DNA of 34,367 nucleotides from Deltaproteobacteria bacterium (lineage in GTDB: Bacteria > Desulfobacterota > Desulfarculia > Adiutricales > Adiutricaceae): contig JAITJB010000120.1 of NCBI GenBank assembly GCA_031279155.1, positions 1-34,367 on the forward strand, written 5' to 3'. The notes under the pieces were generated by a model that was given only the letters and a program-made list of their open reading frames with translations, did no database searches and was not told where the DNA came from. How positions within the stretch are numbered: the stretch's first letter is position 1; each line of letters starts with the position of its first letter. The translations under genes and the position numbers were made by a program. This document shows positions 4,699 to 34,063 of the stretch, piece by piece.

Positions 4699-7062
4699 AT
4701 GGAACAATCGACCCTGGAAATGTTAGAGTTTGAGGGGGTCTTAAGGTGGTTAGCCGAGGAGACTCACTCAAACCCTGGCGCCGATTTAGCTATGAGCCTT
4801 AGGCCCAACTTAGACGCCGAAGGCGTTAAAGAATCCTGGGCCAAAATTAATGAAGCTAGAGACCTTTTGGCGACCTTAGAGAGCCCGGATCTGCGCGATC
4901 ATGTCGATCTAACTACTCTCTTATCAAAGGCTGCGCCTGAATCGGCCCGCTTAGATCCCGACGAACTGCGCGTTTTTGGCTTAGAGGCTCAGACCTCAAC
5001 CATGGTTTTGGCCTGGTTTAGAGGGGTCAAGTCAGATTTACCGTTATTGCAAGCAATTGTAGGCGATCTTTTTGATTTTTCCGAATTGACCGGAGTCTTA
5101 GCTAGGACCTTTGGCCCTGACGGGGAAATTTTAGATAGCGCCAGCCCTAGGCTAGCTCAGCTGCGCTTGGAACTGACCAATGCCCGCTCGGCTTTGACCT
5201 TAAAGCTAGGCGATCTAATGCGATCTGAAGAATATAAGCCTGTCTTGATGGATGAACTTATTACCACCCGAAACGATCGCTTTGTCGTGCCCGTTAGGGC
5301 CTCAGCTGCTGGTCGGCGCCGGGGTATGGTCCACGATTGGTCAAAGAGCGGGCAGACGGCCTATTTAGAGCCCTTAGAGACGGTTGAGGACAATAACCGT
5401 TTAGCTAAGATTAAGCTTGAAGAGCGCCGGGAGATCGAAAGAATTTTACTTAAAATTTCCCAAATGTGCCGAGAACTCGCCCCGTTCTTTGTTAAAGCCG
5501 GACGCGCCTTAACTATTATTGACGTCATCATGGCTCAGGCCCGGCTGGCCATAATTTGGCGCTTTAGTTTTGTCGAGCATATTATTGGCGCAGGTCTAAA
5601 ATTTGTTCAGGCCCGTCATCCTCTCTTAGAGCGGCGCTTAAAAGCTACTGGCCGCTCGATGGTTCCCCTAGATTTAGTAGTTACTCCCAAGAGCCCGGTT
5701 ACGATTGTCTCAGGAACTAACACTGGCGGAAAGACAGTTGCCTTAAAGACCCTAGGCCTCATTACGGTCATGGCCTTGGCCGGACTACCTTTACCTGTGG
5801 CTGACGGCAGTCATATGGATTTTCCGATAGACGTCATTGCCGTTATGGGCGATCGCCAGGATATGGATAGCGATCTCTCAACCTTTTCCGGTCACGTCAA
5901 AGCCTTAGGAAGCGTTCTTGACATAGCTAAAGAAGGGGTATTGGTGATTATCGATGAGCTGGGCTCAGGCACTGACCCGGCCGAAGGGGCGGCCTTGGGC
6001 TTGGCCGTTTTGGAGCGCTTAGTTATAAGCCGGGCGCAGGTATTTGCCGCCACTCACTTTCATCTGATAAAGAGCTGGGCCGCCGTAACCGATGGCGTGG
6101 TCAGCGTTTCAGTTAATACCTCCCCAACTGGTCAGCCGGTCTTCGGCTTAAGCTACGGGGCGCCCGGGTTTTCCGGCGGCCTTATGATGGCTAGAAGGCT
6201 AGGCATAGCCCCAGAAATTATCGATAGGGCTGAAAGCTTTTTAGATGATGGTCACAAGCGGGCCATTGAGATCCTAAGCCGCCTAGATGAAGAGCGCGGG
6301 GCTTTGGCTGCCGAGCGCGAGGCTATGGCCCTAACCCGTCAAAAGGCCCAAGAGAGCGAAGAAGAAAGAAGAGAAATTTTTAGGCGGGAGCGGGAGGCCA
6401 TAAATAGGGAAGCTAGAGAGCAGGCGGCCTTAATAAAAAGCCAATTGGCCAGAAACCGCCGGGAGTTTGAGGCCCTCAAAGAAGAGCTAAAGGCGGCTGT
6501 TAAGGCCGGTAGAGATAGCGATATCGTCCGCTTAAATCTAAAGCGATCGGATCAAGAAAAAGAGCTGGAAACCGTAAAGCCTAAGATTTTGGACCAGAGA
6601 GCAGGCAGGCCCGCTAAAGTTATCAGCGAGGGGGCTCAGGTCTTTGTCGAGAGCCTAGGCCATAACGGGATCATTAAGCACATAAACCCGGAAAAAGACG
6701 AGTACACGGTAGAGACCTGCGGCTTAACGGTTAAGGTCCGGCGTAAAGATCTATCTGAGCCCTCAGCTAGCGACAAGCGGCGTTCGGTGGTTAACGTATC
6801 CTTAGGCCCTGATGAGCCGGCCCTCTCGCTAAACCTCTTAGGCCGGACCGTTGATGAGGCCGAAGACATAATCGATCGGGAGATAGACCGGGCCATCGTG
6901 GTTGGCCGCGATAGGCTGACCATCATCCATGGGCTAGGAACAGGGCGGCTCAAACAGGGTATTATCAGTCACCTCAGAAGACACCCGCGAGTGCGGGCCT
7001 TCTCAAGTCCCTTCAACGTCCCAGGGGGTTCGGGGATTACCGAAGTTGAGCTGAGTTCTTAA
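4699..7062 (+). CDS. mutS2: Endonuclease MutS2
   Basis: VSGTNTGGKTVALKTLGL Walker A, DELGSGTDPAEGAALGLA, coiled-coil region, C-terminal Smr domain ending HGLGTGRLKQGIISHLRRHPRVRAFSS; ORF start could be TTG 4696 or ATG 4699. Confidence 0.95.
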   Translation: MEQSTLEMLEFEGVLRWLAEETHSNPGADLAMSLRPNLDAEGVKESWAKINEARDLLATLESPDLRDHVDLTTLLSKAAPESARLDPDELRVFGLEAQTSTMVLAWFRGVKSDLPLLQAIVGDLFDFSELTGVLARTFGPDGEILDSASPRLAQLRLELTNARSALTLKLGDLMRSEEYKPVLMDELITTRNDRFVVPVRASAAGRRRGMVHDWSKSGQTAYLEPLETVEDNNRLAKIKLEERREIERILLKISQMCRELAPFFVKAGRALTIIDVIMAQARLAIIWRFSFVEHIIGAGLKFVQARHPLLERRLKATGRSMVPLDLVVTPKSPVTIVSGTNTGGKTVALKTLGLITVMALAGLPLPVADGSHMDFPIDVIAVMGDRQDMDSDLSTFSGHVKALGSVLDIAKEGVLVIIDELGSGTDPAEGAALGLAVLERLVISRAQVFAATHFHLIKSWAAVTDGVVSVSVNTSPTGQPVFGLSYGAPGFSGGLMMARRLGIAPEIIDRAESFLDDGHKRAIEILSRLDEERGALAAEREAMALTRQKAQESEEERREIFRREREAINREAREQAALIKSQLARNRREFEALKEELKAAVKAGRDSDIVRLNLKRSDQEKELETVKPKILDQRAGRPAKVISEGAQVFVESLGHNGIIKHINPEKDEYTVETCGLTVKVRRKDLSEPSASDKRRSVVNVSLGPDEPALSLNLLGRTVDEAEDIIDREIDRAIVVGRDRLTIIHGLGTGRLKQGIISHLRRHPRVRAFSSPFNVPGGSGITEVELSS

Positions 7063-16206: not shown

Positions 16207-16574
16207 AATAAACAGAACCTCTTTAGCTCAAAAATGAGCGATAATTTGCTTGGTAAAAAAAAATACACCAAAAAATATGGTGATAACCAAGCAGGAAATT
16301 AAATTATACCAGTCAAAATCTAGCCAAAATTTTTGACTAGATAAAAATTACAATAGATATTGATAACTATTGGGTAAGACGTGTGCTGTTTTCTCGTTTT
16401 GGCCTTTCTGTTATCTGTGTTGTGTCGCTTTAGCGACTCAAGCACATAAAAGACAATTTACCAAGAAAGTGTCCGGTTGTCAAGATTTTTTTTATAACAT
16501 TATTTTGCTAGTTCAAAATCAGTAAACTGAGGTAACATAGGGCTGGAATAATAAAAATCACCTGGAATAATAAA

Positions 16575-16728
16575 AACCGCCTTTTGGTGGTTTAGGGAAT
16601 CCCGTTAAAATCGGGAGCGGACCCATCACTGTGAGTTGAGCCCTCTAAAAAGGAGGGCTTTTTAGGACCCGGCTAGGAAAACCGAAAAGGATTAGGGGTC
16701 TTAAATCGACGAGCCAGAAACCAACCAG
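16575..16728 (+). promoter_or_regulatory. Cobalamin (AdoCbl) riboswitch
   Basis: AGGGAATCCCGTTAAAATCGGGAGCGGACCCATCACTGTGAG core and B12 box GACGAGCCAGAAACC at about 16708-16722, upstream of cbiZ. Confidence 0.9.
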
Positions 16729-16800
16729 GAGAAGATAGACGACTTTGGCGGGGATCGGTCAAAGTTGCCGGGCTGACTTTGAGCCCGAGGGTGTATGGGG

Positions 16801-16831
16801 CCCGGACATTATGGCGTCCGGGTTTTTTTTT
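16801..16831 (+). terminator. Rho-independent terminator between riboswitch and cbiZ (expression platform)
   Basis: CCCGGAC-attatggc-GTCCGGG followed by TTTTTTTTT. Confidence 0.85.
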
Positions 16832-16861
16832 GCCTGCTTTTTAAACCTAGGTGGAGGCGTG

Positions 16862-18139
16862 ATGTTGATCGGAAATTATTATGAAGGCTTAGAGTTCTAT
16901 CGGGAAGACAAGATAATTTACGGAAAGTTCTTGGTTCCCCACCAAGTTGTGACCACCTGCCGGTCCGGAGGCGGGCAAAGAGATGATTTACTTTTTTTGG
17001 GCAATCACCAGGGCTGCGAGCCAGCCGGTCACTCCCATTCATTGGTGGCGGCCATCGAGCCCGATGTTTACCATAAAAACATCTGTTTGGCCCACGGGCT
17101 GGACCCACAAAGATGCGCTCTTTTGGGCACAGCCGCCAACATGCGCTTAGCCGCCGTTAAAGACCTAACTTTTAGGGATCTGACGGTCGTGGCCGCCGTG
17201 ACCGGCGGCGTTGAAGGTAACGCTGGCCGGGCCGGCGACCCGGCTTACGGTTGGGAGGGCCAAGATGGCTATGAGGCCTTAAAGAGGCCCCATGAAGAAA
17301 ATAGCCAGGCCCAAGAAAGACAAGCCAGCCAAGAAAGTCAAGAAAGAAAAGATAGCCAAGAAAGAAAAGATAGCCAAGAAAGCCAAGCCTCCGGGCTAAA
17401 TCCCAACCACGGGACCATCAATATCCTCCTTTTTATCAATCGGCCCCTAACGCCCGGCGCCTTGGCTAGGACGCTTATTACCATAACCGAGGCCAAAAGC
17501 GCGGCTCTGGCGGAATTAGCTGTAAATTCCAGGTATTCTAACGGTTTAGCCACTGGGACCGGGACAGACCAAATAGGCGTGGCTTGTAAGATATCTAAAG
17601 ATCAAAGGCCCATAACCAGTTCCGGTAAGCACTCCAAATTGGGTGAGCTCATCGCCCTATGCGTCATCGGGGCCCTTAAGGAGGTCTTAATCAGGCAAAA
17701 TGGCATGACCACGGCTCGCCAGTGCTCGGTTAGAATCCACCTTGAGCGCTTCCATGAGATATCGCCGGGCCGACATGGTTTAGCCAAAGAGACGCTGGTA
17801 AACATGGTGGCCGCCCACTTAGATGACCAGACGGCTTCGCTACTTAGGGAAAATTATCGGGGCTTGTTCCACGATCCCATGAACGTAGCCCAGGTGGCGG
17901 CCATGACGGCGATTAGGGACAAATTTAACTATGGGATACTACCGCCTTCGGTTTATGCCGAAGTCATGGTCCACCAAGCTGCCCTTCTGGCCGTTGAGGC
18001 TGGCGGGCGGACCGGAGAATTTACCAAATATTTAGAGAGGTTGACTGAAAGCCCCCCAGAAAACTCGGATCAAGGCTTTATAGAGTTGGCGGCCTTGGCC
18101 ATGGCCATGGGTTTTAACGATAAATGGCAGGAATTGTAA
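16862..18139 (+). CDS. cbiZ: Adenosylcobinamide amidohydrolase, CbiZ family
   Basis: VVAAVTGGVEGNAGRAGDPA, GTINILLFINRPLTPGALARTLITITEAKSAALAEL, SNGLATGTGTDQIGVA, GKHSKLGELIA; downstream of a B12 riboswitch; GGAGG before GTG/ATG; low-complexity SQERKD insert. Confidence 0.88.
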   Translation: MLIGNYYEGLEFYREDKIIYGKFLVPHQVVTTCRSGGGQRDDLLFLGNHQGCEPAGHSHSLVAAIEPDVYHKNICLAHGLDPQRCALLGTAANMRLAAVKDLTFRDLTVVAAVTGGVEGNAGRAGDPAYGWEGQDGYEALKRPHEENSQAQERQASQESQERKDSQERKDSQESQASGLNPNHGTINILLFINRPLTPGALARTLITITEAKSAALAELAVNSRYSNGLATGTGTDQIGVACKISKDQRPITSSGKHSKLGELIALCVIGALKEVLIRQNGMTTARQCSVRIHLERFHEISPGRHGLAKETLVNMVAAHLDDQTASLLRENYRGLFHDPMNVAQVAAMTAIRDKFNYGILPPSVYAEVMVHQAALLAVEAGGRTGEFTKYLERLTESPPENSDQGFIELAALAMAMGFNDKWQEL

Positions 18140-18337: not shown

Positions 18338-21300
18338 ATGAATAATCACCCCCCTGTCAGGCCAAGAAGCAAGAACATTAATTACCAGGGTTTTAGAATG
18401 CGGCGCCATACAGTCGGCATTATTTTAGCATTTTTTGCTATATTTTTATTTCATTTGCCATTATATGCTGGTCAAGTATCAGAGCCAACTGTTGATAATC
18501 TCCAAAATTTACTGAATAACGCTGACGAAGGTGAGACCATATCATTTAATGGTAATATACCTGGCATTGATTTTAGTATTGATGACTCTATTATTAGCAT
18601 TAAAACCGAATTTTTAGTTATAACGGGCAATATTTCTAGCAATTTCAAAAATATGATAAGTGGAATATCATCAAGTATTTCAAATTTTGCATCTAGTAAC
18701 CTAACATCCTCGAGTAGCCAGTTAACTGATTTTGTTAATACATCGCTAAGTAATTTTATTGCTTCTATACCATCTAATATGACATATATTAAAGGTGATG
18801 GCAAACAAAGATTTAATAGAAATTTAATAACTATTGATAAAGGGAATTATGATAATAAATTAACAATCAAAAATATTAATTTTAATAATTTTAAATTATA
18901 TTATTCTAGATATGTCAACGTAGCTGGAGGTTTTGTCAATACATTTATTGGTAATTCTAAAGACACAACTATTGATATTTATACCTATTCCTTTGAAGAT
19001 AATATAGTGAAAGATATTAGTATAAAATTTTCAGGACTTAGTGATTCTCATTACCTTGCTGGCGGTGGCATTCTTGGTTTAAGAAACACAGGCCTAAATA
19101 TGCATAGTAATGGAATTGCATATTTTGGTAATATTTCAGGAAATTACTTTGATAATTTAGATATTAGCCTAACTAGATATAATGATCCCACTGCAGACAC
19201 GCCTTATCTTATAGGTGGTGGTGTTATCGGTATTGTCGCCGTGGACACGCTGGCCGCAAAATCTGGCTATGGAAGGTTAGACACTCTTTCTAATAATATT
19301 TTTACGACAATATCTGTTAATTCAGAAAATAATATAATTGGTGGCGGAATTGTTGGTATAGACAACAATAGTACCCAAGTAGGTACTATTGTTGCTTCAA
19401 AAATAAATCAAGCCATTGGTAATATCTTTGGCAATGGCCAGGCCGGCAATATCTCGGTTAAAGCCTATTACTCCTTAAATGGCGGCGGGATAATCGGGCT
19501 TAACGGCTTGTCAGCGGCCAGTACGCAGCTAGACTACCTCTCGCAAAATGTTTTTGGCGGCCTAAGCGTCTCCACCGGGACTTATTTGTTCGGCGGCGGC
19601 GTTGTGGGGCTACAAACTAATAATGACCCCCAAAATAGTTCCACCCAAGGACCAAGTTACAAACCGCCTGTAGGTTTTGCGAAAGATGAAGCTCCCAACA
19701 TAACTTCTATCATAAGCACGGCTACTAATAATGTTTTCTACAATGTCGATCTTAAGGTTGGAATCCTATCGACCGGCGGTTTACTGGAAGGTGGCGGCAT
19801 AATCGGGGTTCGGAGTTTTTCCGATCGGGCCCTGATAGATAACCTAGAAAGCAATTATTTTAATAATATCAATGTTGCGACCTATGCCGGTTCCACTCAT
19901 AGCGGTAATTTATTTGGTGGTGGTATAGTAGGCGTCGCATCAAAAGGTTATTCTTCTATTAATTTTGCTAATAATAATTATTTTAAACAGATAACTGTAA
20001 ATATTGCCGGGGACTTATATGGCGGCGGCGTAATGGGTGTTGATGCCCATGAGCCAGGCAATAAAAATAATATTGAAACTGGTGCGACTATAGGTAAGAT
20101 TTATAACAATACATTTACAGATATAAATCTAAATTTTGGTTCAAGCTCAGCACCAAATTCAGGTATGATATATGGTGGCGGCGTCATCGGCTTAAACTCG
20201 CCTAATGGAATAAATACTGCCTTGACAATTAATAACGATTATGATTTAGAAGCAATAAATAATAATAGATTTTATAATATAACTCTTAATGCTCAAAATG
20301 GTCTTTATGGTGGTGGGGTTATCGGATTGGCCAATGAGCTCGGTTACAGCCTAATCGGGCCTGTTGTTGATAATATCTTCAGTAATGTAAATATCAAAGC
20401 TAAATTTATTGAAGGTGGCGGTCTAATTGGTATATACTCAAAAGGTTTGGGTATTTTATATTCAGTAGATAATTCCTTCTTTCAAAATTCTACTATCACC
20501 TCCGATTACTACATCGATGGTGGTGGCATTATCGGGGTGACTGGAGACGCTTCTAGTCCGTCGGCCAATGGAATCTATTCGATAAAAAATAGTTATTTTG
20601 CAAATAATAAAGTTATTGCTAATAATGGTATAATAATGGGCGGGTTGGTTTATACTTACGGCTCAACAGCTGCTGAATTTCTAATTGAAGATTCTATATT
20701 TATGAATAATCAATTTATAACAGGTATAAATTCTAGTAGTTATACTCCAAATGATATGAGCATTTTAGATCCTAATAATTATGGAACTTTCGGTGCTGTT
20801 GTTGTCGATACTGGTATAAATATTTCTAATCAAGATAGTATAAATCTTACTCTATCGGCAACAGCAGGTAGTAGTCTTTTGTTTTATAATAACATCATAA
20901 AAAATTCTGGCCAAGCTGATAGATACAACTCTGTTTATATCGGTGTGATACCAGAATATAATTATGATTTAGCAAGTAATACTTTTAACGTCTCGGGTGA
21001 TACTTCAGAGATTGATGCTATTTTAACGATTAAAACCGAACCTTATTCATCTATTGCTCTTTATGATCCTATAGTCGTTAATCAAGATAGTAACAAAAAT
21101 TTTACCATGGTCGTTGAAGGTAGCGGCGAATTTGCCTGGGCAGGTGATAACATTTTTAATGTCCAAAATCTAAATAGTGATAATATAATAACATTAAAAT
21201 CCGGCTCTCAGACTATTTTTATGAATAGTATTTATGGAACAAAACAGACTGAATATTATAAACCATTTTCCTTAACTGCCCCTAATCATGATTTTGTCTT

Positions 21301-22810
21301 AGAAAGTGGGGCCCAGCTTAATCTGCTTGGCAATAACTATTTAGATGTTCACAAAGCAGATCTTAATGGTACGCTTTATTTTAATCTTACTAATGCGCTT
21401 GTTAACGACTATACCAATCCGATTTTAACGATCAATACGGCTCCTGATGAATTTGTTTCCCTAAAAGGTGCTAAAATCATCGTTAGCAATCTAAATTGGG
21501 GACAAACACCTGTGGTGGGCGATAAATTAGTGCTTATTGATACTGGTGAAAACGATAAAATAATAGATTACCCAGAAGCCATAGTTATTAGTGCTAAATA
21601 TGGGTATATTACGTATTATACAATGGTGGTCGATAGCGGTACGACGACTGATACCGGAACCCCGACTGATACCGGAACGCCGACTACGCCAGGAACGCCG
21701 ACTACGCCAGGAACGCCGACTACGCCAGGAACGCCGACTACGCCAGGAACGCCGACTACGCCAGGAACGCCGGCCGCAAACTCGGATCGTCAATTGGTGA
21801 TTAGAGTGCCGGCGCCAGACGATCCGATCTTAGTAGAATTAGGCCTTGAGCCCATCGCCGTCGTATCAGAGGTCAAATTGCTCTCCGAGGGTCAGGTAGC
21901 CGGCCTTAACCTGATCAGCCACTCGGTAAGTTGGCTAGCCGATCAAGCCTACCGGCAAGCTGATGTGGCCTTTGAACATGGCGGACGTAACTGGGCCCCC
22001 TTTGGAGGCCTAGACGGGGCTCTATTTAGTTCGAGGAGTATACATTCCACGGTGACCGTGGAATCTGGTTCGGCTATTGCCGGAATGGCCTACCGGGTAC
22101 CATTTTCTTCTTCCCGGCTCGTCATCGGCGCCTTCGTTGAGAGCTCCATAGGTGAATATGAAGTTACTGGCGGCTATAACTCCCTCAAAGACAATAATCT
22201 AGAAGCTACCGGTAGGTTAAGATCTATTGGCGGCGGTCTTTTGATTCACCATCGCTTCAATAACGGCATTTCACTGGAAGCTGGTGGCCGGGTTGGTCAA
22301 CTGCGCAATGAATTTAAGAGCTCGGCCTTTGACCATGAATTAGGCAACGTCTTCAATTACGATATCCAAACGCCTTATTTGTCCGCTTATGGCGGCTTGG
22401 GCTTTAAGTGGCAGATTAACGAGCATTCCAGTTTAGATTTTTCAGGTCGCTACTATTGGACTAACTTAAAGGGCCAGTCAGTAAAGTTGGATAGCCAAGA
22501 AGTTGTTGATATCCACGAGGCTACTTCTAAGAAGGTGCGCGGCGGCCTTCGCTATACTTTCTCACCCCAAAATAGTTTTTCTATCTACGCTGGCGGCTAT
22601 TGGGAGCGAGAGCTAGATTCTGACTCGACAATTTCTGTTCACGGTAAGTCAGTTGCCGGCGAGGGTCCCAAAGGCGATTCCGGCTTAGGTGAGGTCGGCG
22701 TGATGCTCCATTCGCCGGGTAGTAATTGGGGGCTTGAGCTCGGGCTTCAAGGCTATACCGGTAAGATCCATGGTTTCTCAGGTGGCTTAAGGCTACGTTA
22801 CCAATTTTAA
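18338..22810 (+). CDS. Large autotransporter (type Va secretion) with repeat passenger, Thr-Pro linker and C-terminal autotransporter beta-barrel
   Basis: 1490 aa; signal-like MRRHTVGIILAFFAIFLFHLPLYAG; at least 12 GGG(I/V/L)(I/V/L/M)G motifs; (TPTTPG)n linker; C-terminal about 280 aa barrel-like, ending in LRLRYQF (terminal aromatic). Confidence 0.88.
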   Translation: MNNHPPVRPRSKNINYQGFRMRRHTVGIILAFFAIFLFHLPLYAGQVSEPTVDNLQNLLNNADEGETISFNGNIPGIDFSIDDSIISIKTEFLVITGNISSNFKNMISGISSSISNFASSNLTSSSSQLTDFVNTSLSNFIASIPSNMTYIKGDGKQRFNRNLITIDKGNYDNKLTIKNINFNNFKLYYSRYVNVAGGFVNTFIGNSKDTTIDIYTYSFEDNIVKDISIKFSGLSDSHYLAGGGILGLRNTGLNMHSNGIAYFGNISGNYFDNLDISLTRYNDPTADTPYLIGGGVIGIVAVDTLAAKSGYGRLDTLSNNIFTTISVNSENNIIGGGIVGIDNNSTQVGTIVASKINQAIGNIFGNGQAGNISVKAYYSLNGGGIIGLNGLSAASTQLDYLSQNVFGGLSVSTGTYLFGGGVVGLQTNNDPQNSSTQGPSYKPPVGFAKDEAPNITSIISTATNNVFYNVDLKVGILSTGGLLEGGGIIGVRSFSDRALIDNLESNYFNNINVATYAGSTHSGNLFGGGIVGVASKGYSSINFANNNYFKQITVNIAGDLYGGGVMGVDAHEPGNKNNIETGATIGKIYNNTFTDINLNFGSSSAPNSGMIYGGGVIGLNSPNGINTALTINNDYDLEAINNNRFYNITLNAQNGLYGGGVIGLANELGYSLIGPVVDNIFSNVNIKAKFIEGGGLIGIYSKGLGILYSVDNSFFQNSTITSDYYIDGGGIIGVTGDASSPSANGIYSIKNSYFANNKVIANNGIIMGGLVYTYGSTAAEFLIEDSIFMNNQFITGINSSSYTPNDMSILDPNNYGTFGAVVVDTGINISNQDSINLTLSATAGSSLLFYNNIIKNSGQADRYNSVYIGVIPEYNYDLASNTFNVSGDTSEIDAILTIKTEPYSSIALYDPIVVNQDSNKNFTMVVEGSGEFAWAGDNIFNVQNLNSDNIITLKSGSQTIFMNSIYGTKQTEYYKPFSLTAPNHDFVLESGAQLNLLGNNYLDVHKADLNGTLYFNLTNALVNDYTNPILTINTAPDEFVSLKGAKIIVSNLNWGQTPVVGDKLVLIDTGENDKIIDYPEAIVISAKYGYITYYTMVVDSGTTTDTGTPTDTGTPTTPGTPTTPGTPTTPGTPTTPGTPTTPGTPAANSDRQLVIRVPAPDDPILVELGLEPIAVVSEVKLLSEGQVAGLNLISHSVSWLADQAYRQADVAFEHGGRNWAPFGGLDGALFSSRSIHSTVTVESGSAIAGMAYRVPFSSSRLVIGAFVESSIGEYEVTGGYNSLKDNNLEATGRLRSIGGGLLIHHRFNNGISLEAGGRVGQLRNEFKSSAFDHELGNVFNYDIQTPYLSAYGGLGFKWQINEHSSLDFSGRYYWTNLKGQSVKLDSQEVVDIHEATSKKVRGGLRYTFSPQNSFSIYAGGYWERELDSDSTISVHGKSVAGEGPKGDSGLGEVGVMLHSPGSNWGLELGLQGYTGKIHGFSGGLRLRYQF
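21650..21772 (+). repeat. 18-bp in-frame tandem repeat encoding (TPTTPG)n linker
   Basis: acgccgactacgccagga repeated (TDTGTPTDTGTPTTPGTPTTPGTPTTPGTPTTPGTPTTPGTP). Confidence 0.95.
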
Positions 22811-29349: not shown

Positions 29350-29796
29350 TTAGCTTATAGGGAGCCTCGAATAGGCCAGGCCAAGAAAAAAGCCCACGGT
29401 CGTGGCTAAATTTAGGCTCCTTACCCCGGGGGCCAAGGGGATATTTAAGATCTCGTTGGCCTCTTTAGTTACCTCCTCTGGGAGACCCCTGGTCTCTGGA
29501 CCAAATAAGAGGTTATCAGATTGCTGCGGTTGGTAGGAGGTAAAATGTTTACCTCTCCGAGCTGAAGTGGCTATCAGGCGGCCTATGGGTTTACTTAGGC
29601 AAAAAGAAGGCCAGTCAGGCCAGATCTTAAGTTTCACTAGCGGCCAATAATCTAAACCTGCTCGCTTAAGATAGCGATCTTCTAAGGAAAAACCCAAAGG
29701 CTCAACTAAATGGAGAGTAAGGTTAAAGCCAGCGCAAAGTCTGGCGATGTTCCCGGTATTGGGGGGTATTTCAGGTTGGTATAAAACGATGTTCAT
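29350..29796 (-). CDS. trmL: tRNA (cytidine/uridine-34 2'-O)-methyltransferase (SPOUT)
   Basis: MNIVLYQPEIPPNTGNIARLCAGFNLTLHLVEPLGF, LLFGPETRGLPEE, PGVRSLNLATTVGFFLGLAYSR. Confidence 0.92.
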   Translation of the reverse strand: MNIVLYQPEIPPNTGNIARLCAGFNLTLHLVEPLGFSLEDRYLKRAGLDYWPLVKLKIWPDWPSFCLSKPIGRLIATSARRGKHFTSYQPQQSDNLLFGPETRGLPEEVTKEANEILNIPLAPGVRSLNLATTVGFFLGLAYSRLPIS

Positions 29797-29870: not shown

Positions 29871-30944
29871 TCAATTAAACAATCGGATGAGGGTAGCTAC
29901 GTAATTTCCGGTTTCCGGTTTGCCGCCCACCAGGGCCTCTTGGGCTCCCATAAAGCCCGGAACGACCGATAAAGGCCCCATGGTGGTCATAACCCACTCC
30001 CCGGGCGGGCGCCTCTGACCTTCTTGAAAGTGGACATGCTCGAAAATAACATTTTTTGGGGCTTTAGTGGTGACGGCATTATGGCTGCTAACCGGAATAA
30101 AGCAGTTGACCATTTCCACTAACAAGTTTACGCCCGTGGAATAATAGATAGCCGTGGGCGTCTGGCTAGGGAAGCGGGCGTCAATTTCCAGAAGTTTTAA
30201 GACTCCTTGGCTATCGATGGCCTCGAGATCCATGATGCCGGTTAGGCTCAGTTTTTTGGCGATCAATTCGGCCATGCGGCCAAATTTATCCTCGCGCTCA
30301 GGGCTTAGGCCAGAGGGAGCGATAACTTGGTAGCAGTCGTGGGCGCTTTCAAAATTTAAAAGGGTAACCTGAAAGCTTTTGGCTTGGCCATTTCGGGCCG
30401 TGACCTCAACGGAGTACTGAGGCCCGGAGAGGTATTCTTCGATGACTAACCCTTGACGGCTCTTTTCGGTCGGGTAGAGCCTACGAACATCTTGAGCGTC
30501 TAAGATTTTAAGGCCCCGGCTACCGGAGAGGTTGTCGGGCTTAATAATATATTGGCCAAAAGATTCAGTATCGCTAAAAGATGCCGGCATGGGGAGAGAA
30601 AGAGATTTAAAAATCTTTTTGGATTTCTTTTTAGAGGAGGTAATCTTATAGGCTTTAAAATCGATGGTAACTGGTGGAATGATTTGTTCTTGGGCGAGGG
30701 AAGTAAAGCGCTCGATAATTTTCTCATCTTCTAAAGTCGGAATGAGCAAATCAAAGCCGGCGGCCAGATGGATAGTGTTTTTAATATTGAGATCCATAAG
30801 ATTTGCGGTAATGGACCAATCGGCTAGGCCAATGGCCGGGGCCCGGGGGTTTTTGTCGACTACGGCCATAGTCCAACCGGCTTTCTTCCCGAGATAAACG
30901 GCCTCAATTCCTTGTAAGCCGCCGCCTAAGCAAAGTGCTCTCAT
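29871..30944 (-). CDS. pylC: 3-methylornithine--L-lysine ligase PylC (ATP-grasp)
   Basis: MRALCLGGGLQGIEAVYLGKKAGWTMAVVDKNPRAPAIGLAD; ATP-grasp EIDARFPSQTPTAIYYSTGVNLL; C-terminal GAQEAL...NYVATLIRLF; ATGA overlap with pylB. Confidence 0.93.
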   Translation of the reverse strand: MRALCLGGGLQGIEAVYLGKKAGWTMAVVDKNPRAPAIGLADWSITANLMDLNIKNTIHLAAGFDLLIPTLEDEKIIERFTSLAQEQIIPPVTIDFKAYKITSSKKKSKKIFKSLSLPMPASFSDTESFGQYIIKPDNLSGSRGLKILDAQDVRRLYPTEKSRQGLVIEEYLSGPQYSVEVTARNGQAKSFQVTLLNFESAHDCYQVIAPSGLSPEREDKFGRMAELIAKKLSLTGIMDLEAIDSQGVLKLLEIDARFPSQTPTAIYYSTGVNLLVEMVNCFIPVSSHNAVTTKAPKNVIFEHVHFQEGQRRPPGEWVMTTMGPLSVVPGFMGAQEALVGGKPETGNYVATLIRLFN

Positions 30945-32041
30945 AAATGATTGTTCCGTTTCATTTGCCTTAGGAGCTCTTGGTACTCCTGAGGTTGGCC
31001 GACCGATAAGTCGTTAGAAGTAAGGATCTCGCTGACCTTTTCAACGCCGCGATTATGGTTTTCTATGTCTAGAGCTTGATGAGCCACCCCGGCTAAGCCT
31101 AAGTAAGCCGGCACCAATGAGGTGACAACGTTGGCGCCGGCTGAAAGTCTGGGAGCTAAGCCTTGTAAGCCTTCGACATCGAGTGAGGCTGGTATTAAGG
31201 CCCGGGGGTAAGATAACCTTAGGACGGCTATCATTAAAAGTTCTTGGTTTGAAGCCTTGACCCGGTAGTCAGGCGGGAGTCCCCCCGGGGAAGGGACGTA
31301 GGCCATGGCCCGCAGTTGGGTGGCCCCAAGTTTACCCATGGCTACGATCGAGTCAGCTAAATCCTCAGGCGTGGCGCCGGCGCCCAAGAGGACGCCTTCT
31401 TCGACTAAAAAACCCATGGCCGCAGCTTTTTTCTTACTTTTCATCCTTTTTTCAAAGTCTTGACCGCGCCGCCAAGCCTTAAACAAATTTCTATTGTGGG
31501 TCTCTTGATACAGGGCGTACCAGGTGACCCCGGCCCGCCTAGCCATTGACAGTTGAGTCTGGCTTAGGACGCCAGGGGAGAGCATGATGGGTAGTTGGGT
31601 CTGTTGACCAATTTTGGCCGCCGTTTGACACAATAGCTCAAAGCCATCCGGGGTAAGTAATTGAGGATCCTCACCCATAGTCAGATCGATTAGGCTGACG
31701 CCGGCTGCGGCTAGCTCAATGGCCGCCCCGTAGATCTCATCGGCGGTCTTGCGGTAGCGGCTAAGAGTGGTTAATTCCGTTCGCCAGTGGCAGAAGGCGC
31801 AATTGTTGCGGCAGTAGGTCGATAGGTAGATAAAACCATAGAGGAAAACGCGGTTGCCAAAATAGATCTCTCTTAGCTTTCTTGCCCCCTCAAAGAGGGC
31901 TTCGGTCGCGGCCTTACTGGTAAGCCTTAAGAGAGCGGCTATCTCGGTTAAGGTTGGTGGCGAGCCGTTTGACGAGCGTTCGACGATGAGACTAACTTGG
32001 TCAGCGGTCAGAGATTTTTTCACAAGACAGTTCCAGATCAA
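30941..32041 (-). CDS. pylB: 3-methylornithine synthase PylB (radical SAM)
   Basis: LYGFIYLSTYCRNNCAFCHWR (CxxxCxxC), LTMGEDPQLLTPDGFELL, GLAPRLSAGANVVTSLVPAYLGLAGVA; TTG start overlapping the pylSc stop. Confidence 0.95.
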   Translation of the reverse strand: MIWNCLVKKSLTADQVSLIVERSSNGSPPTLTEIAALLRLTSKAATEALFEGARKLREIYFGNRVFLYGFIYLSTYCRNNCAFCHWRTELTTLSRYRKTADEIYGAAIELAAAGVSLIDLTMGEDPQLLTPDGFELLCQTAAKIGQQTQLPIMLSPGVLSQTQLSMARRAGVTWYALYQETHNRNLFKAWRRGQDFEKRMKSKKKAAAMGFLVEEGVLLGAGATPEDLADSIVAMGKLGATQLRAMAYVPSPGGLPPDYRVKASNQELLMIAVLRLSYPRALIPASLDVEGLQGLAPRLSAGANVVTSLVPAYLGLAGVAHQALDIENHNRGVEKVSEILTSNDLSVGQPQEYQELLRQMKRNNHL

Positions 32042-32898
32042 ATTTTAAGCGGTATACCCTTAATTCGCCCTAGAGTTCGGCTCACCAAAGACACCCGGTC
32101 CAGATTTGCGGCAGCCATGGCCAGGCGCTCAAGCCCGAAGCCTAAGCCCAACCATGTGCCGTCAAAACCCCAAGCCTCGTCAAGAGGGTGAGGACCCATG
32201 GAGCACGAGGCTAGCTCCAAGCCATCACAGCTTACAATATCGATGGTTTTTTCGTAGACCGTGGAACCTACCTCCTCGTGTCGCCAGTCCTTAAGCCCGA
32301 GGCGGCCCAGTATGGCTTCCACAAGTTCTGAGAGTCTATCTAAGCGCTTATCTAGGGGCAAGCCCACCTCCACTAAGTTTAACATAGTAAACTCGCTGGC
32401 GTGACGTGAACCCTTTGATTCTTTGCGAAAGCAAGGCCCGACCTCGAAGATGCCAAAAGGCCGTCCCTCGGCTAATTTTAAAAGATCTAGCATGTACTCG
32501 TAGAGATGAGGGGCTAGCATCGGCCTTAAGCAGCGCTTGGCGTCGAGCCAGAAAACCTGAGAATAAAAAAGTGGATCGCTCTCTAACACCATGCGAGAGA
32601 GTCGGGCCCTGCTCATGATAATGGGGGTGGAAACCTGAATTAACCCGCGAGAAACTAAGAGCTCACACAAAGTTTCCGATATGACCTCAACCAAAGGCCT
32701 GCCGCCAGTAGATAACATCTCCTTAATCGCGCTTCTAGCCGCCGTTACTAAGGCTTGCTCAGTCTGACGGTAGTTAGCGTCTCTCATTAGGGGACCAGAA
32801 AATTGGGCTTCTAAAGTCTCAGCCTTAGCCCCTAAGTCCCTGAGGCGGGATAGCTGCTCAGATGTAAAGCCGAAAGTTTTGCCATTATATTCGGTCAC
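32038..32898 (-). CDS. pylSc: Pyrrolysyl-tRNA synthetase catalytic (C-terminal) subunit
   Basis: CLRPMLAPHLYEYMLDLLKLAEGRPFGIFEVGPCFRKESKGSRHASEFTMLNLVEVG and VYEKTIDIV...WLGLGFGLERLAMA; class II aaRS PylS motifs. Confidence 0.96.
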   Translation of the reverse strand: MTEYNGKTFGFTSEQLSRLRDLGAKAETLEAQFSGPLMRDANYRQTEQALVTAARSAIKEMLSTGGRPLVEVISETLCELLVSRGLIQVSTPIIMSRARLSRMVLESDPLFYSQVFWLDAKRCLRPMLAPHLYEYMLDLLKLAEGRPFGIFEVGPCFRKESKGSRHASEFTMLNLVEVGLPLDKRLDRLSELVEAILGRLGLKDWRHEEVGSTVYEKTIDIVSCDGLELASCSMGPHPLDEAWGFDGTWLGLGFGLERLAMAAANLDRVSLVSRTLGRIKGIPLKI

Positions 32899-33257
32899 GA
32901 TTTGATCTTTTCTCCATCATCAGGGGCTACGTTTAGGGGTAAGGAAGGCAAAACCGCTCCCCGTCGTTTGGAAAATACAGTGGATCCGTATTTTTCAAGC
33001 TTCCAAGCCGGAATCTGGCAGCTTGGGCAGGGCGAGGTATACTGCTTGGCCCTGAGCCAGCGGGCCGCCCTGGACTTAGACGAATCGCGGGCTGTAAAAA
33101 CCAAGCCGCAATGGGTTGTCACCCGAAGGCCAGCCGGCGTATGGTCGAGGCTTTTGATCCCATGGAGAATGCCGTTTCGCGAGGGCCAAAGCTTGATCTT
33201 AGAGACCAAGGCTACTAGGCGCTGGCGTTTGCGGTAAAATCTTTTGGTCTCAGCCAT
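32895..33257 (-). CDS. pylSn: Pyrrolysyl-tRNA synthetase N-terminal tRNA-binding subunit
   Basis: KIKLWPSRNGILHGIKSLDHTPAGLRVTTHCGLVFTARDSSKSRAARWLRAKQYTSPCPSCQIPAWKLEKY matches the PylRS N-terminal domain pattern including the Zn ligands; GTGA overlap with pylSc. Confidence 0.93.
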   Translation of the reverse strand: MAETKRFYRKRQRLVALVSKIKLWPSRNGILHGIKSLDHTPAGLRVTTHCGLVFTARDSSKSRAARWLRAKQYTSPCPSCQIPAWKLEKYGSTVFSKRRGAVLPSLPLNVAPDDGEKIKS

Positions 33258-33297
33258 GATTAAGATCCGGGGCTGTTATTGGAACAGGCGATGTTAT

Positions 33298-33370
33298 TGG
33301 CGGGGAGTCCGGGAGTCCCACCCGGCTGTACGGGTTTAGAGCCCGTATGATCAGTTGCGATCCACCCCCC
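33298..33370 (-). tRNA. pylT: tRNA-Pyl, anticodon CUA (33337-33339), CCA encoded
   Basis: GGGGGGTGGATCGCAACTGATCATACGGGCTCTAAACCCGTACAGCCGGGTGGGACTCCCGGACTCCCCGCCA: 7-bp acceptor, single-nt acceptor-D linker, 4-bp D stem with 6-nt loop, 6-bp anticodon stem, 3-nt variable loop CAG, T-arm without TPsiC. Confidence 0.97.
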
Positions 33371-33381
33371 AGACCGCGAAA

Positions 33382-33387
33382 ATTATA
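33382..33387 (-). promoter_or_regulatory. -10 box TATAAT of the pylT-pylSn-pylSc-pylB-pylC promoter
   Basis: Minus strand ...GGGTTATAATTTTCGCGGTCT|GGGGGG(tRNA 5' end); consensus TATAAT 11 nt before the mature tRNA 5' end; no good -35 seen. Confidence 0.65.
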
Positions 33388-33744
33388 ACCCAATTTCCCT
33401 AAAAAGACACCCCTAAAGCCTCAAAATTTACCAAAAAAAATCTGCCCTAGATTTTTGTGGCCCTGATTTAGGTCGGATGGTAACGTATACAATTCGCCCT
33501 TTAGGGCTAACTATCAATGGGGCGATTGGCTAGCCATTGGTGTTCGGAGTCTTAAAAAATAATCCGTTTTGGGCCTAAAAAAGTTTGGGGTCGGATGCCC
33601 ATTGGGGAAAGTGTAAGCCTTAACATGCCTAAAGGACTAATTTTTTAAAGGCGGCATAAAACGTCAAAAAAAGTCTTGACAAAACGGAAAAACCTCTCTA
33701 GGATAAAAACGTCTTAAAAAAATACGATTTAACTTTTACTTTGC

Positions 33745-33925
33745 ATTACCGCTGTTTGTTTTACGCCTTCGGTAAGGCCGAAGAACATAGGGAATCCCGT
33801 GGAAATCGGGAGCGAACCCATCGCTGTAAAGTCTTTATACCGGAAACGGTGTCCGAAATAATACGCCCCTTGGATATTTCCTGGCAAGGCATTTCGGGTA
33901 AGACAAGTCAGAAAACCTAAAAACA
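33745..33925 (+). promoter_or_regulatory. Cobalamin riboswitch (second copy), divergent from the pyl cluster
   Basis: ATAGGGAATCCCGTGGAAATCGGGAGCGAACCCATCGCTGTAAAGTC core and B12-box-like GACAAGTCAGAAAACC near 33902-33917. Confidence 0.88.
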
Positions 33926-34063
33926 GACAGCCATAATATATCGTACCACTTGGGGAAAATAAGTTGTACCTATTAGGGACATCTAGGCCTGTTTAGGCTA
34001 TGAATTATCTAAAATAAAAATATTATAGGATAATTGTCCCGCAACTTGCTAGGTTTTTACGGA

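Follow-up and report, generated by a model that had tools for sequence, protein, structure and literature searches.

A bacterial split-synthetase pyrrolysine cluster with detached pylD in Adiutricaceae and its likely client, a divergent MttB beside ethanolamine genes

Pyrrolysine (Pyl) is the rare 22nd amino acid, inserted at UAG codons, and its few natural clients are, to our knowledge, the mono-, di-, and trimethylamine methyltransferases. In this study a stretch of 34,367 nucleotides from a Deltaproteobacteria bacterium of the Adiutricaceae (contig JAITJB010000120.1, hereafter the window) was analysed, which is the entire contig C187 of the metagenome-assembled genome (MAG) G000 (2.89 Mb, 92% complete, 339 contigs). 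With a probability of about 93% its genes pylT, pylSn, pylSc, pylB, and pylC belong to a bacterial split-synthetase Pyl system, with pylD located elsewhere and a UAG-containing mttB gene as the client. The pyl machinery is of a known kind with an ordinary mechanism, and the new features are the detached pylD and, above all, a specialised Pyl-MttB beside the ethanolamine (eut) genes; this distinct MttB clade tied to the ethanolamine microcompartment is the likely client of the system.

The activity of the system and the charging of tRNA-Pyl are predicted here from sequence. PylB would convert lysine to 3-methylornithine, PylC would join the latter to a second lysine, and PylD, supplied from another locus, would close the ring; PylSc with PylSn would then charge tRNA-Pyl, which would read the single UAG in mttB as Pyl, while UAG elsewhere would stay a stop.

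Components and layout of the pyl cluster

Identity of the open reading frames (ORFs) was judged by NCBIfam profile cut-offs together with the best PDB match and Pfam. The catalytic subunit of the pyrrolysyl-tRNA synthetase, pylSc (32038..32898, minus strand, as are all genes of the cluster), reaches 241 bits in TIGR02367 (cut-off 178), its best PDB matches are the PylSc structures 3dsq and 2zni (E 8e-66), and the APxLY, FTMLN, and VYxxTiD motifs align. The tRNA-binding small subunit of this split enzyme, pylSn (32895..33257), scores 104 bits in TIGR03912 (cut-off 51) and is matched best by the PylRS N-domain 5ud5, with which its His and Cys in the CxxC region align. The radical SAM methylornithine synthase gene pylB (30941..32041; TIGR03910, 397 bits, cut-off 348) has PylB 3t7v as its best structure match (E 2e-71) and contains the CRNNCAFC cluster motif, the HydE, BioB, and ThiH models scoring far lower, and the ATP-grasp 3-methylornithine-lysine ligase gene pylC (29871..30944; TIGR03909, 287 bits, cut-off 248) is matched best by PylC 4ffl (E 4e-47). 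All Pyl ORFs of the cluster are open. The tRNA gene pylT (33298..33370), called tRNA-Pyl(cta) by ARAGORN, has the anticodon CUA, an encoded CCA, and discriminator G, and its fold consists of 7/4/6/5-bp stems with a 6-bp anticodon stem, 1 nucleotide (nt) from the acceptor to the D stem, and a 3-nt variable loop; compensatory changes occur at 8 pairs among 12 distinct tRNAs of the family, a value as high being obtained in none of 500 shuffles.

The identity of these five parts, as claimed in a preliminary description of this DNA, was thereby confirmed, since the curated cut-offs are passed and the matching Pyl structures rank best. Two of the checks which that description had proposed, a profile search and a tRNA finder, gave concordant results: the equivalog models for the N- and C-terminal PylS, PylB, and PylC were all exceeded with superfamily rivals well behind, and the ARAGORN call, fold, and covariation fit tRNA-Pyl. 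All four ORFs are members of large superfamilies, to which they also match weakly, and it was considered whether they might be look-alikes (BioB/HydE-type radical SAM, generic ATP-grasp, or PheRS-like proteins) accompanied by an ordinary amber suppressor tRNA. However, the Pyl equivalog models lead by wide margins over cut-off, the top structure matches are PylB, PylC, PylSc, and the PylS N-domain, the tRNA has Pyl-specific geometry, and a UAG-containing mttB is present in the genome; the look-alike explanation is left with a negligible probability and is already refuted for family membership.

The cluster runs in the order pylT-pylSn-pylSc-pylB-pylC, followed by a trmL-like gene. Overlapping stop and start codons, described previously for every junction of coding sequences, were found at all three as 4-nt overlaps (GTGA, TTGA, ATGA), two of them depending on the chosen GTG and TTG starts (the alternative pylB start is a GTG six codons further in). 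These tight overlaps are not evident in G001, a congener used as the comparison genome, and the compactness is thus local. The previously claimed -10 element also holds: TATAAT at 33382..33387 of the minus strand, 11 nt before the tRNA, probably serves as the -10 element for transcription of pylT-pyl, its spacing is identical in G000 and G001, and the 20 nt just upstream agree at 15 of 20 bases between the two genomes against 3–7 of 20 further up. In other genera the box is not visibly kept. The gap between the tRNA and pylSn, 40 nt in G000 and 22–28 nt in several relatives, leaves little room for a second promoter, which favours co-transcription; pylT and the pyl genes are probably transcribed together from this TATAAT, and putative release of the pyl mRNA via tRNA processing is plausible.

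The trmL-like tRNA 2'-O-methyltransferase gene (29350..29796, minus strand) is not a Pyl gene; it scores 148 bits in TIGR00185, below the cut-off of 191, and carries the Pfam SpoU_methylase domain, and its adjacency to pylC recurs in G001, G003, G011, G021, and G033. A cobalamin riboswitch (58 bits) lies upstream of the cluster at 33743-33938 of the plus strand, facing the contig end, and was rejected as a cluster part because it points away from pyl and none was found by the G001 pyl locus. A second cobalamin riboswitch, at 16568-16743 of the window, precedes a CbiS-like ORF.

The 17 PylSc proteins of the family form one clade (100/98), in which the subgroup of the window stands on a long stem. 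Several loci of relatives have individual arrangements: in L078 (G021:C258, 3029-7614) an insert of ~4.5 kb separates pylSc and pylB and a second C-terminal pylSc fragment is found at 5552-5788, the pyl cluster of L071 (G028:C200) contains tRNA-Pyl genes at both 5397-5468 and 5932-6003, and L090 (G009:C139, 9836-12294) is a second partial set, pylD-pylSn-pylB, of a genome which also has a fuller one.

The separate locus of pylD

The preliminary description passed directly from PylB and PylC to the decoding of UAG as Pyl; both proteins are encoded in the cluster, but these two alone are insufficient, and the required PylD would be supplied from elsewhere in the genome. No pylD is present in the window, and a profile search of G000 gave noise only. 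With PylD of G001 as query a C-terminal PylD piece with WHDPLVTGTAVMLLEAS was found at C210:2-310 of G000, beginning at the edge of this contig. Beside it lie flavodoxin-like, PHP-domain, and accC-like genes (names from sequence reading), and in G001 the intact pylD has the same three neighbours. The opposite flank of the locus (peptidase U32-like, thrC-like, atpE, and atpB) forms the end of contig C41; low-complexity repeats stand at both edges of the gap between C41 and C210. Because the ends of C210 and C41 match the G001 gene order, the missing part of pylD would fall in an assembly gap, and true absence of the gene was rejected in favour of such a gap given the piece in conserved synteny.

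Detachment of pylD is not peculiar to G000. The gene is unlinked yet intact in G001, G003, G010, G011, G021, G026, G029, and G034, and it lies away from the cluster in genera g1, g3, g6, g10, and g11, while in genera g8 and g9 it is situated within the cluster in the order Sc-D-(T)-Sn-B-C. Among the sufficiently complete loci of a wider bacterial sample many keep pylD in the cluster, and two from Actinobacteria (L125, L134) have none nearby.

Several points weigh against the main reading of the cluster. The pylD frame of G000 is interrupted by the end of the contig and contains a repeat insertion of ~47 residues, which leaves an intact PylD putative here; a promoter scan gave no acceptable candidate for a -35 box; and in a MAG of 339 contigs and 92% completeness the linkage between contigs is deduced from relatives. 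A decaying or scavenging system, in which the cell without working PylD would import Pyl or its analogue or would be losing the system, agrees with a cluster devoid of pylD, with the C-terminal piece being all that is assembled in G000, and with the patchy occurrence of Pyl genes, which 17 of 37 family genomes have. Such a system is nevertheless quite unlikely, since the pylD piece starts exactly at the contig edge with neighbours ordered as at the intact locus in G001, the gene is unlinked but intact in the eight relatives listed above, the Pyl ORFs are open, and the UAG-containing mttB shares 97% identity with its G001 counterpart despite strongly diverged synonymous sites.

In-frame low-complexity repeats (SGLTS, SQGSQNS, SQERKD, TPGTPTT) interrupt several proteins, including PylD and the peptidase U32-like protein; they were observed at L098 1-310, L101 5130-5420, and in the window ORFs 16745-18139 and 18338-22810, and two contig breaks are close to repeats. 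The latter ORF, on the plus strand, encodes a 1490-aa autotransporter-adhesin-like protein with repeats followed by a beta-barrel-like end and has no NCBIfam match. In the 92%-complete genome G017 a pylD gene (L081, C108, 13266-14069, minus strand) occurs with no PylSc, PylB, or MttB over cut-off, and it may be a relic or have another function.

UAG in the genome and the Pyl-MttB clade

The use of UAG was surveyed in 434 kb of G000 (15% of the genome) on genes of at least 150 codons (n=282). UAG ends 55 of these 282 genes (19.5%), the median distance to the following stop being 8 codons, by which genome-wide reassignment of UAG is ruled out, and homologous read-through past UAG was found in a single sampled gene, mttB; outside mttB UAG is an ordinary stop. 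No further clear UAG client appeared in the MttB family and this genome sample, MtmB and MtbB not having been searched for.

The mttB gene of G000 (C80:689-2203, minus strand) contains UAG at codon 328, which in alignment with M. barkeri MttB (structure 7xcm) falls on residue 334, namely Pyl334 (PMC9842639). With UAG read through the product scores 567 bits in TIGR02369 (cut-off 525). The PYLIS_3 region scores 66 (cut-off 38). Among 61 genomes PylSc and UAG-containing mttB are both present in 16, each is present alone in 1, and 43 have neither (Fisher p 1.4e-12, nominal since the genomes are related). The decoding of UAG as Pyl, as described earlier, is consistent with this co-occurrence and with the UAG-containing mttB of the genome; its extent is limited, since UAG stays a common stop.

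The protein belongs to the MttB family, as it passes TIGR02369 and keeps the catalytic Gly110, Tyr364, and the Pyl334 position. It groups with 11 others, drawn from genera g1, g3, g6, g10, and g11, in a clade that is separate from the other Pyl-MttBs (100/100, stem 0.82), and comparison with 20 of the latter revealed 29 fixed differences, including Y289R, G333T (adjoining Pyl334), and one additional residue following P340. All members have Arg at position 245, and Gly110, Met249, Tyr364, and Gly372 of M. barkeri MttB are retained. In a 396-genome sample of the phylum no relatives over 45% identical were found outside the family. Between G000 and G001 MttB is identical at 97% of residues and 57% of four-fold sites, the corresponding values for PylSc being 63% and 31%; recent horizontal spread was rejected as the cause of the high MttB identity given its four-fold sites, and purifying selection fits better.

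No mttC gene adjoins Pyl-MttB in the eut-side locus of G000, and the label of trimethylamine (TMA) methyltransferase is therefore not claimed for it. An MttC-like gene for a corrinoid protein, located on contig C68 of G000 with a methyl-tetrahydrofolate methyltransferase (MeTr) gene, reaches 204 bits, just below the cut-off of 215, and for RamA G000 and G001 gave sub-cut-off relatives only. Two Pyl-type MttB paralogues have sense codons at the Pyl position: L207 (G001:C99, 1131-2645, minus strand), in a genome with the Pyl system, has AAG (Lys), and L201 (G037:C226, 530-1996, plus strand), in a genome without it, has Asn; natural loss of Pyl is possible in both.

The ethanolamine neighbourhood and comparison with known systems

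In clade members with long enough contigs the Pyl-MttB gene points away from eutS-P-B-C-L-E in divergent orientation, and after it come genes for a HAD phosphatase, an APH kinase, an EamA transporter, a non-Pyl MttB (MttB_L), and a second APH kinase; in G000 this region is distributed over the two contigs C80 and C161. MttB_L lacks UAG and adjoins a choline-kinase-like (APH) gene, the likeness being one of APH family membership only. In Peptococcaceae contig L150 a kinase, an MttB_L (66% identical), a corrinoid protein, and MeTr are encoded shortly before its own pyl cluster.

This arrangement suggests a choline-to-ethanolamine demethylation module using Pyl. The kinase and non-Pyl MttB would take the first methyl from choline, giving dimethylethanolamine or its phosphate, Pyl-MttB would remove the remaining methyls, with dephosphorylation at some stage, to yield ethanolamine, and the adjacent eut microcompartment would ferment it, the methyls being passed to methyl-tetrahydrofolate. 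As a whole this proposal is tentative, and we place it somewhat below even odds. A quaternary adduct between the Pyl of MttB and its tertiary amine has been put forward as a hypothesis (PMC12155760), which fits a tertiary substrate for Pyl-MttB; TMA is a possible substrate as well, and this counts against the choline proposal. As to in-house TMA formed by choline TMA-lyase, this source was rejected, a search of 41 genomes having given no CutC above the cut-off. In the literature no paper was found linking Pyl with Adiutricaceae or with the eut microcompartment.

If the proposal is true, Pyl would have a new use in the breakdown of choline-like compounds. The divergent, near-frozen MttB beside the ethanolamine operon makes it testable whether the use of Pyl extends to further tertiary amines and by what route choline can be taken past dimethylaminoethanol without oxygen, and for genetic-code expansion the PylSn/PylSc/tRNA set offers a bacterial pair that is divergent.

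The published bacterial pyl clusters have the orders pylTScBCDSn and pylSnScBCD (PMC3941956), and the present system is similar to them in gene set, split PylSn/PylSc, tRNA-Pyl(CUA), and UAG in mttB, but in genera g1, g3, g10, and g11 the order is pylT-Sn-Sc-B-C followed by trmL with pylD distant, and in g6 likewise without trmL. The Pyl system of marine Deltaproteobacteria (PMC8318568), a related phylum-level group, also has Pyl synthesis genes and a UAG-containing trimethylamine methyltransferase; however, the PylSc of those bacteria is ~44–46% identical and forms a separate clade, and their client is reported as TMA methyltransferase, whereas here the likely client belongs to a divergent clade of MttB proteins encoded next to eut genes. 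In comparison with M. barkeri MttB (7xcm, PMC9842639) UAG occupies the Pyl334 position in both, while the MttB described here belongs to a separate clade with no adjoining mttC. In E. limosum the kinase MthK makes phosphocholine, which the non-Pyl MttB protein MthB, encoded next to it, demethylates to dimethylaminoethanol phosphate (PMC12155760), and the MthK-MthB-MthC-MthA system resembles the present locus in that a non-Pyl gene of the MttB superfamily adjoins APH-type kinases, a likeness at the level of families. The E. limosum pathway ends at dimethylaminoethanol phosphate and involves no Pyl, whereas here Pyl-MttB and the ethanolamine ammonia-lyase operon adjoin.

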